Of a stretch of 64,000 nucleotides of DNA, positions 56,679 to 60,442 are shown piece after piece; the first letter of the stretch is position 1; the number at the start of each line of letters is the position of its first letter. A model generated the notes under the pieces. The model was given only the letters and a program-made list of their open reading frames with translations. It was not told the DNA's origin and did not search any database. The stretch spans positions 62,001 to 126,000 of the forward strand of contig JAGUQW010000007.1 of assembly GCA_030154445.1 (NCBI GenBank), read 5' to 3'. The translations under genes were made by a program, and so were the position numbers. This DNA comes from Spirochaetota bacterium (lineage in GTDB: Bacteria; Spirochaetota; Brevinematia; Brevinematales; Brevinemataceae).

Positions 56679-57755
56679 ATGAAAATACTAAATCTTTTTT
56701 ATCAAACACTCTTACTTACAATTTTCACAATCATTCCTACAATATCTCAAGCACAATACAAATGGATTACATATACTGGAGATCCAAAATTTTTATCTTT
56801 AGAAGATGGGATTGATAGAGGTCGTATTTTATACCATCAACTGGCACAAAACTCATCTTCTCTTGCTGGTAATAGAGGAATGATGTTTAATGCGACTTTA
56901 TTTGCGTTTCCATCATTAACGGGCTCTTTTGCTTGGTCTCAAATCCGTGTTAATATCGGTAAAATATCTTTTTACCCACATATTTTCAATTTTGATAAAG
57001 GTACTAGTTCTTTATCTATAGCTATTCTTTATAATATATCACGCGTATCACCTGTTCGTGGTGTGAGAACTAGACCTAGTTTTTCTCCTACCTCTCTTCT
57101 TCAATTAGAAAAAGAGAAAATGAATTTCATCAAATTAAAATTTGTATCAGAAGGATTTGAAGCAGATTTACTCCTACAAACTAGAAATCAAGAAACAGAA
57201 TTAAGTTTAAGTGACTATGATATTAACTATAACTATTGGTTAAAATCCAGTCCTTCTCAAAAAGAAGCTATGCAACTTCGTACTTTCTTTGCTCGTCCTT
57301 TAACAAGCTTTAAAGTTAGAGCTTATAGTGATAAAGGTTATTTAGATACAACATTATCTGGGTCTCAAGTTGATTCTTTAGGAGATGTCTTTGTCAGTAC
57401 AATAGATTTATATCAACGTCTTATTGATCCAAATTATATCAATAGTGTTAAAAACACTAATACTAATGCTGTTAAAAAGCCTACTGCTAAAAAATCTGCA
57501 ATTCCTCCAGCTAAAAAACCTGCAACTCCTCCAGCTGCTGCTAAAAAACCTGCAACTCCTCCAGCTGCTGCTAAAAAACCTGCAACTCCTCCAGCTGCTG
57601 CTAAAAAACCTGCAACTCCTCCAGCTGCTGCTAAAAAACCTGCAACTCCTCCAGCTAAAAAACCTGCAACTCCTGCTGCTAAAAAACCTGCTCCTACAAA
57701 AGTAGTACAAACAAATAGAAGACCTAAAGTTACTAGAGTTGTTAAACCTAAGTAA
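56679..57755 (+). CDS. Secreted protein with Ala-Lys-Pro-Thr repeat tail
   Basis: 358 residues. Signal peptide (TLLLTIFTIIPTISQA) with an AGGAG site upstream. Residues 27-265 form a beta-rich domain (WSQIRVNIGKISFYPHIFNF, LSIAILYNISRVSPVRG, NFIKLKFVSEGFEADLL) of unknown family. The C-terminal 95 residues are a basic, proline-rich tail with six KKPATP motifs, four of them in exact AAAKKPATPP units (57514-57655). Such lysine/proline tails span or bind peptidoglycan or acidic polymers. The SodC-like lipoprotein follows 26 nt downstream, in one unit. Confidence 0.78.
   Translation: MKILNLFYQTLLLTIFTIIPTISQAQYKWITYTGDPKFLSLEDGIDRGRILYHQLAQNSSSLAGNRGMMFNATLFAFPSLTGSFAWSQIRVNIGKISFYPHIFNFDKGTSSLSIAILYNISRVSPVRGVRTRPSFSPTSLLQLEKEKMNFIKLKFVSEGFEADLLLQTRNQETELSLSDYDINYNYWLKSSPSQKEAMQLRTFFARPLTSFKVRAYSDKGYLDTTLSGSQVDSLGDVFVSTIDLYQRLIDPNYINSVKNTNTNAVKKPTAKKSAIPPAKKPATPPAAAKKPATPPAAAKKPATPPAAAKKPATPPAAAKKPATPPAKKPATPAAKKPAPTKVVQTNRRPKVTRVVKPK
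57514..57675 (+). repeat. 30-bp coding repeat AAAKKPATPP
   Basis: Four exact copies of a 30-bp unit, flanked by shortened copies; the DNA is identical between units, which implies recent expansion by slippage or recombination. Confidence 0.88.
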
Positions 57756-57781: not shown

Positions 57782-58306
57782 ATGAAATTAGTTATTATAA
57801 TTTTAAGTTTATTATTAACTTATTGTGGTATATCACCAAAAGAACTAGAAGGTTCCTTGTATAATCTTACAGAGAAGGGTATAGACCAGATTTTTGGTAC
57901 TATTACTGTTAAATCATTGGCTAAAGAAGGTATTATTATCCATGTTACTGCAACTAATCTTACTCCAGGTAATTATGGATTTCATATCCATGAAACCAAT
58001 ATTTTAACACCATCTATCCATGCTGATGGTTCACAAATGATAATAGGTGGTATGGCTAAAGGTCACTGGGATCCAGATAACACAGGTATCCATGCAGGAC
58101 CAGAAGGTAATGGCCATAGAGGAGATTTACCCCAACTTTCTGTTGATGACAATGGTACTATTAATTCTATAATTACTAATAAAAAAATTCAATTAACAGA
58201 TATTAAAGGTAAGAGTTTTATGATTCATGGAAATCCTGATAACTATTCAGACACACCTTTACCTCTTGGCGGAAGTGGTCCAAGAATGTTTGCCGCACCT
58301 TTTTAA
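57782..58306 (+). CDS. sodC: SodC-like lipoprotein (Cu,Zn superoxide dismutase family)
   Basis: 174 residues from the ATG at 57782 (GGAGG 5 nt upstream). The N-terminal signal ends LLTYC (Cys15), a permissive lipobox. Copper ligands His68, His70 (GFHIHE), His95 (bridging) and His149 (MIHGNPDNYSD) and zinc ligands His95, His104, His112 and Asp115 are all present, as is Arg168 (GGSGPRMF, the anion-guiding arginine). The two disulfide cysteines of the family are absent: Cys15 is the only cysteine. It would dismutate superoxide in the periplasm if metal is loaded. It is co-transcribed with the repeat-tail protein. Confidence 0.85.
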   Translation: MKLVIIILSLLLTYCGISPKELEGSLYNLTEKGIDQIFGTITVKSLAKEGIIIHVTATNLTPGNYGFHIHETNILTPSIHADGSQMIIGGMAKGHWDPDNTGIHAGPEGNGHRGDLPQLSVDDNGTINSIITNKKIQLTDIKGKSFMIHGNPDNYSDTPLPLGGSGPRMFAAPF

Positions 58307-58319
58307 TAAAATAAAAAAT

Positions 58320-58374
58320 CCCTATACTAAATTTCCCCCCAATATTATATATTGGGGGGAAATTTAGTATAGGG
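58320..58374. repeat. Perfect 26-bp inverted repeat
   Basis: The left arm (58320-58345) and right arm (58349-58374) are exact complements, with a 3-nt loop TAT. The arms contain a C6/G6 tract. It begins 13 nt after the sodC-like stop and is not followed by a T run, so it is not a standard terminator. Confidence 0.85.
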
Positions 58375-58500
58375 GATAATATAAAGTATATAAATAGTAT
58401 ATCTATATTACAAGGGGTGTACTATTATAAGTCTATTATAAAATAAATAGATTCGATAATTATATTTTTATTTTTTATACAATATTTATATTTATGTCTA

Positions 58501-58529
58501 TTGACTCACATCTCTTTTCACACTATAAT
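58501..58529 (+). promoter_or_regulatory. Promoter of the EIIB-like gene and aldolase
   Basis: TTGACT (58501-58506), a 17-nt spacer and TATAAT (58524-58529). It lies 32 nt before the ATG at 58562, and the aldolase gene follows with no separate clear promoter. Confidence 0.7.
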
Positions 58530-58561
58530 ATATTTATATTTATATTTAAAGGACTCTCAAT

Positions 58562-59359
58562 ATGTTATATCAAAACCTTATTTCTATATCTCAAAAAAAA
58601 ATTCTCAACAAATTAGCCATGGCTTTAGGTTATTATAATATTACTAAGATAAGTAACTGTATGAGTAGAATTAGAATAGAAGTAGTAAATCCTTCTCTAT
58701 TAGCATGTGATAAAAGTTTTCTTTTATTAAACACTCAAGGTATTATTCGAGAAGATAATTTTATACATCTAATTTACGGTAAGATAAGTTCTCAACTTGC
58801 TTTTCAATTAAATTTACTCTATAAAGCGTTAAATAATACTTTTACACTTGAATTAATAAATTTATTACAAGGTTCAAAAAATATCCAAAAATTAACTCAT
58901 ACTGATAAGCAAATTACTATATTTATAAATGATTCCATAGAAATAAATCAACAACTTTTACAAGACTTATCTCATACTCATAATATTATTATTCAACAAA
59001 AAAATAATTCTATACTACTATTAGTAGATCAAAATATGCAAGAAATATTTACTATAATTCAGTATACTCTGTTATTTTGGGATACTATACAAAGTTTGTT
59101 TATAATAAATACTTTAAAAATATCAAATATTACTAATATTACAAGAACTAACTATACATTAAAAATAGATACTGCTGTTCCTATCGCTATAAATACGACT
59201 ATTTGGGGTTATTACGGATTAGAGACATCTCCTAATAGTGTTAGTGAAAATGAAATATATATTCACAATATTTCTAATGAACTATTTGAATCTTTATTAG
59301 AATATTATCATTTTTTAATAAACGGTAATGATTTCTTTGACAAGAAATCATTACCATAG
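58562..59359 (+). CDS. Stand-alone PTS EIIB-like protein
   Basis: 265 residues; AAAGGA precedes the ATG. Residues 13-85 match a glucose-family EIIB: ILNKLAMALGYYNITKISNCMSRIRIEVV, with Cys33 at the phosphocysteine position, then the LLLNTQGII and HLIYGKISSQLAFQL segments. The rest (residues 95-265) is a second alpha/beta region of unknown family. It lacks EIIA and EIIC domains and membrane helices. It is adjacent to fba, so a role as sugar-phosphate sensor or phosphoryl-transfer regulator of glycolysis is tempting, but this is inference. The last codons encode a hairpin (59324-59355). Confidence 0.55.
   Translation: MLYQNLISISQKKILNKLAMALGYYNITKISNCMSRIRIEVVNPSLLACDKSFLLLNTQGIIREDNFIHLIYGKISSQLAFQLNLLYKALNNTFTLELINLLQGSKNIQKLTHTDKQITIFINDSIEINQQLLQDLSHTHNIIIQQKNNSILLLVDQNMQEIFTIIQYTLLFWDTIQSLFIINTLKISNITNITRTNYTLKIDTAVPIAINTTIWGYYGLETSPNSVSENEIYIHNISNELFESLLEYYHFLINGNDFFDKKSLP
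59324..59355 (+). promoter_or_regulatory. Perfect hairpin at the end of the EIIB-like gene
   Basis: A 14-bp perfect stem GGTAATGATTTCTT/AAGAAATCATTACC with loop TGAC, lying inside the last codons of the EIIB-like gene, 40 nt before fba. It is not followed by a T run. It may stabilise or process the mRNA between the two genes. Confidence 0.65.
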
Positions 59360-60413: not shown

Positions 60414-60442
60414 AAAAAGCCCCTATTAATAGGGGCTTTTTT
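60414..60442 (+). terminator. Intrinsic terminator after fba
   Basis: The stem AAAGCCCCTA/TAGGGGCTTT with loop TTAA (and flanking A/T runs) is one of the strongest terminators in the window. Confidence 0.95.

Follow-up and report, generated by a model that had tools for sequence, protein, structure and literature searches.

The U-tract is the defining part of an intrinsic terminator. Bidirectional intrinsic terminators are built from an A-tract, a hairpin, and a T-tract. The REP-type elements of Escherichia coli are intergenic and stabilising and belong to a repeated family. The transcripts of E. coli also often end at hairpins that have no U-tract, and these are read as Rho-dependent ends that were trimmed back to a stabilising hairpin, according to the available part of the report (PMC13289151). 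Rho-dependent ends are present in Borrelia, a spirochaete, according to the accessible sections of another report (PMC10319736). Template switching has been described, in the part of the source available to us (PMC8794818), as an origin mechanism for RNA hairpins. The hairpin reported in this work stands after a sodC-like gene and is referred to as the sodC hairpin. It was not found in the literature that was searched, and its absence from print is not claimed. The available part of a survey of bacterial inverted repeats (PMC10434271) yielded nothing on terminators.

Materials and Methods

The window is the whole stretch of 64,000 nucleotides that was analysed and corresponds to C7:62001-126000. 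The genome sample comprises 400,000 of the 1,499,402 bases of the genome, taken in stretches (C7:1-160000 and C2:1-240000). Perfect stems were counted with loops of 2-8 nt. Gene ends came from a crude call of ORFs of at least 100 aa. Convergent ends were used, as were co-directional ones whose gap was 100 nt or more, and the 400-kb sample yielded 144 of them in all. Ends whose gap was shorter than 15 nt had been removed before counting, and a hairpin shared by convergent ends was counted from both sides.

Results

The features of the locus are shown in Table 1. The sodC hairpin consists of CCCTATACTAAATTTCCCCCCAATAT, the loop, and the exact reverse complement of the 5′ arm, as identified by the inverted-repeat search of the window, and the arms are complementary at 26/26 positions. 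Among all perfect inverted repeats of the window whose arms are at most 60 nt apart, it is the longest. The stem is largely A+T with a C6/G6 core. The RNA fold reaches -43.8 kcal/mol (z -7.0 against 200 shuffles), the fold of the minus strand -44.1 kcal/mol, and the fold as single-stranded DNA -27.8 kcal/mol. The chance expectation for a 26-bp stem is about 6e-9 per 64 kb at the base composition of the window. A chance origin is excluded because 12 local dinucleotide-preserving shuffles of the 400 kb gave no perfect stem longer than 13 bp. The sequence-only reading had described a perfect 26-bp inverted repeat with a 3-nt loop and a C6/G6 tract after a sodC-like gene and had found a chance origin hard to credit, and all of this is upheld.

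Table 1. Features of the sodC locus in the window.
Feature	Position	Strand	Basis
sodC-like gene, Cu/Zn superoxide dismutase, 174 aa from ATG 57782	57782..58306	+	PF00080; orthologues in G002 and G003
A-rich stretch from stop codon to hairpin; T-rich run after the hairpin when read on the minus strand	58307..58319	+	Sequence; terminator-like on the minus strand only
5′ arm of hairpin, 26 nt, C6 at 58335-58340	58320..58345	+	Inverted-repeat search
Loop TAT	58346..58348	+	Sequence, inverted-repeat search, fold
3′ arm of hairpin, 26 nt, G6 at 58354-58359, then no T-run	58349..58374	+	Sequence, inverted-repeat search
Promoter-like TTGACT-17-TATAAT of the next gene	58501..58529	+	11/12 consensus matches, consensus match only

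The two strands differ in what follows the hairpin. The plus strand continues with GATAATATAAAG, which is no T-run, and AAATTTAGTATAGGGG comes after the G6 core. The minus strand has ATTTTTTATTTTATT directly after the hairpin. A consensus scan found the hairpin to be terminator-like on the minus strand only and made no call on the plus strand. The earlier statement that no T-run follows and that the hairpin is not a simple terminator is right for the strand of sodC, which has no U-tract; it made no mention of the T-rich run on the minus-strand side.

The sodC product matches PF00080 with 88.5 bits (cut-off 28.9), and 13 nt separate the stop codon from the hairpin. The next gene downstream (58562-59359) encodes a PTS EIIB-domain protein (PF00367). 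Its promoter-like site begins 126 nt past the hairpin end and suggests that the sodC unit is probably separate from this gene. The hairpin thus lies between the sodC stop and the promoter-like site of the next gene, where the end of the sodC transcript is expected. No comparably strong hairpin was found between the sodC hairpin and this site, and no second terminator was identified there, since the stretches 58375-58500 (z -1.6) and 58415-58490 (z -0.4) fold no better than usual. The RNA just 3′ of the hairpin (58375-58450) has 4 C and 10 G and is G-rich, not C-rich. The first C-rich, G-poor stretch among those examined (58487-58535, 9 C and 2 G) overlaps the promoter-like site.

On the minus strand, the ORF list shows nothing of 60 aa or more from the hairpin to 59351, the site of a 61-aa ORF that overlaps the aldolase gene. 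Further minus-strand ORFs lie past 60818, and another two-way terminator (60414-60441) stands in front of them. The nearby promoter-like sites of the minus strand have 9/12 matches only, and such sites overall are not above shuffles. Directly upstream of sodC, a 358-aa protein that has no Pfam match is encoded, and tandem repeats at 57484-57690 encode about five copies of AAAKKPATPP near its C-terminus.

Hairpins of -10 kcal/mol or better were identified at 102 of the 144 gene ends and start at a median of 13.5 nt past the stop codon. The eight bases after these strong hairpins contain at least six T in 93 cases, five in 2, and at most four in 7. Strong hairpins without a U-tract (at most five T in eight) are therefore a minority (9/102), and one of the seven with at most four T (C2:85316) sits in a tRNA-Gly gene. 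Of the 102, the sodC hairpin has the greatest stability (-44.0 kcal/mol) and the most G-C pairs (10), and it is followed by five T in eight bases. Its start by this measure, 12 nt after the stop codon, is ordinary against the median. The sodC hairpin is the ordinary kind of gene-end stem-loop of this genome in an extreme form that has no U-tract.

Perfect stems of 14 bp or more number 57 in the 400-kb sample; 19 of these reach 20 bp, 8 reach 26 bp, and the longest has 35 bp. The shuffles contain none of at least 14 bp. The sodC hairpin is less exceptional against the real genome than against chance. Stems of 18 bp or more number 26; T-rich tracts occur on both readings in 19, on the minus reading only in 2 (the sodC hairpin included), on the plus reading only in 1, and on neither in 4. 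The density of stems of at least 14 bp is 14.2 per 100 kb in this genome, 8.2 in the same-genus G002 (134,654 bases), and 3.1 in the same-family G003 (160,000 bases), and these genomes differ in GC content (29.2, 34.5, and 34.7%, respectively). The excess of stems, the two-way tracts of 19/26, and the higher density than in the sampled relatives indicate that this species habitually carries long perfect hairpins, mostly as terminators.

In the 400 kb, there are 10 occurrences of the pattern CCCC...GGGG and 4 of GGGG...CCCC, and several hairpins of the CCCC...GGGG pattern are ordinary terminators. A separate class of gene-end hairpins with a C-tract and no U-tract (C2:177570 and C7:148783) was considered and rejected, since both resemble the sodC hairpin in having a T-run on the other strand. 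Several hairpins of the sample were also recorded. A C6/G6 hairpin (C2:177591-177610) stands right 3′ of a plus-strand ORF, where no T-run follows and the opposite strand has one, like the sodC hairpin. A 29-bp perfect hairpin, AATATGAATGCTTTACAGTATATTTAAAA, lies between divergent ORFs (C2:178269-178329) and has no terminator tracts. A 26-bp perfect hairpin (C2:62832-62886) lies within a called ORF. Two perfect A+T-rich hairpins of 27 and 25 bp (C2:85114-85171 and C2:193412-193469, respectively) have T-tracts on neither reading.

The DNA search of 21 genomes identified the sequence of the sodC hairpin in its own genome only and in none of the 20 others. Orthologues of sodC are present in 2 of these 20 genomes (G002 and G003, 54 and 56% identity), and none was found in the same-genus G001, which is 79% complete. 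When 13 genomes of the order were searched for sodC, the same three genomes were returned, and a single distant match, in a Bdellovibrio MAG (28% identity), came from the scan of named genomes. In G003, a 10-bp hairpin of AATTCACCGG with its complement stands right after the sodC stop and is followed by the U-tract ATTTTTTT. In G002, a perfect 24-bp stem that holds A8 and T8 inside it stands right after the sodC stop. The arms of both hairpins are unrelated to those of the sodC hairpin in this genome. The position of a hairpin after sodC is kept and its sequence is not. The presence of a hairpin in both orthologues is expected and adds little evidence because hairpins follow 102/144 gene ends. 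The sequence-only reading had suggested that absence from close relatives together with uniqueness would point to chance or an artefact. The sequence is indeed unique and absent from the 20 relatives, yet each of the two relatives that bear sodC has a different hairpin at this position, and the argument fails as it was put.

Other copies of the arms were searched in the whole genome with at most two mismatches. TTTCCCCCCAATAT was found in 17 places against 11 for its reversed control, and CCCTATACTAAATTT in 12 against 16. These counts are near those of the controls, so there are no arm copies beyond the hairpin itself and chance-level matches. Two matches with one mismatch were rejected: the one for TTTCCCCCCAATAT (C12:49967) lies in a sequence where short segments are repeated, and the one for CCCTATACTAAATTT (C2:213045) in a non-hairpin context. 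No match to the sodC hairpin was found in plasmids, phages, and viral contigs, and Rfam gave no match in the window at the gathering score.

Discussion

An extremely stable hairpin stands 13 nt past the sodC stop, where most genes with room carry one. The reading that we prefer, which we hold to be evenly poised between right and wrong, is that this hairpin is the 3′-end stem-loop of the sodC transcript, trimmed and protected after a Rho-dependent or leaky stop. The stable GC-containing hairpin that an intrinsic terminator has after the stop codon is present, and the U-tract that should directly follow is missing on the sodC strand; because of this, a classic hairpin release of the polymerase would not be expected. 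A gene-end hairpin that has no U-tract is what a 3′-end stabiliser should look like. RNA polymerase would stop further downstream, by Rho or leakily, and 3′-to-5′ exonucleases would then cut the sodC RNA back to the hairpin, which would fix the mature 3′ end and protect the mRNA. The perfect pairing of the long arms may have arisen or been kept via template switching during replication. As far as the sequence indicates, the hairpin is more likely to act as an exonuclease stop, following termination that is Rho-dependent or of the read-through type, than as a classic terminator. The missing U-tract, the Rho gene that is present in this genome, and the reports in E. coli and a spirochaete lead us to prefer a trimmed 3′ end over a terminator on either strand. 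Two findings stand against it: no rut-like site adjoins the hairpin in the G-rich RNA downstream, and the T-run lies on the opposite strand.

Direct termination of sodC by the strength of the hairpin alone or by NusA/NusG-type help is unlikely, but it has several findings on its side. The hairpin is located as ordinary terminators are, terminators with a U-tract occupy the same place in both orthologues, and no comparably strong hairpin precedes the next promoter-like site. However, the organism normally uses a U-tract, as seen at 93/102 strong gene-end hairpins, and AAATTTAGTATAGGGG is what comes after the G6 core here. A minus-strand intrinsic terminator that would keep antisense transcription out of sodC agrees with the T-rich run after the hairpin and with the terminator-like call on that strand. 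We consider it doubtful, since the minus strand offers only the 61-aa ORF near the hairpin, the ORFs farther away stand behind their own two-way terminator, the minus-strand promoter-like sites are weak, and A-tracts ahead of hairpins are the rule in this genome (19/26 stems with tracts on both sides). Similarly doubtful is the reading that template switching during replication made or perfected the palindrome, which would then be a by-product that has no present function. The great excess of long perfect stems (57 against 0), the 4/26 stems that have no T-tract on either side, and the mechanism described for RNA hairpins (PMC8794818, in its available part) are consistent with such an origin, but the sodC hairpin is at the usual gene-end position, and the terminator anatomy of 19/26 stems indicates that selection explains most of them. 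A combined history is only a little less remote: the species would perfect gene-end palindromes unusually often by template switching of DNA (stems of up to 35 bp, far beyond the need of termination), the U-tract of sodC would have been lost or become needless through the strength of the stem, and the gene would have moved from intrinsic termination to Rho plus trimming with the position kept.

The remaining readings have much less in their favour. A protein-binding dyad or cruciform that acts on the downstream gene would fit the perfect symmetry and the stability as single-stranded DNA, and we regard it as highly improbable, given that the genome has no second arm copy, unlike a regulon operator, that the hairpin ends 126 nt ahead of the promoter-like site, and that unrelated sequence stands there in both relatives. 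A mobile-element footprint (MITE or IS remnant) or a REP family member should occur in several copies, which were found neither in the genome nor in the mobile-element collections; the inverted repeat is all that recalls a mobile element, and its probability is negligible. A sequencing or assembly artefact might be considered for a draft genome of 18 contigs, but it is hardly conceivable, as complementarity ends with the arms and does not continue into the flanks, as it would in a fold-back join, and many similar hairpins stand at gene ends of this genome. The interpretation given by the sequence-only reading is therefore partly borne out. Its view of a structure that did not arise by chance stands, and the mRNA-stability hairpin appears to be the best of its three ideas in view of the position and the gene-end habit of the genome. 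Its cruciform found no support, and its mobile-element footprint is not supported, given that the arm is single-copy and that the hairpin was found in none of the 20 relatives searched, nor in the phages, plasmids, or viral contigs.

If the preferred reading of a trimmed 3′ end is true, the sodC hairpin would set the end and the lifetime of the superoxide dismutase mRNA. The genome-wide excess of long perfect hairpins is a more interesting lead than the sodC hairpin alone. In a low-GC genome with many over-long gene-end hairpins, selection for termination and the mutational perfecting of palindromes could be compared.

The sodC hairpin is comparable to three known systems. It shares with the U-tract-less 3′-end hairpins of E. 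coli, as these are presented in the available part of PMC13289151, a stable GC-containing gene-end hairpin that has no U-tract and a Rho gene in the genome. It differs from them in its 26-bp perfect stem, which is largely A+T with the C6/G6 core and is known here from its sequence, and in the adjoining downstream RNA, which is not C-rich. Compared with bidirectional intrinsic terminators, the sodC strand has no T-tract, but the location after the stop codon, the A-tract before the hairpin, and the long perfect stem, like that of 19/26 stems here, are common to both. Compared with the REP-type stabilising elements of E. coli, which are named in the accessible part of PMC13289151, the sodC hairpin is a single copy and not one of a repeated family, and it has in common with them that it is an intergenic hairpin proposed to block exonucleases.
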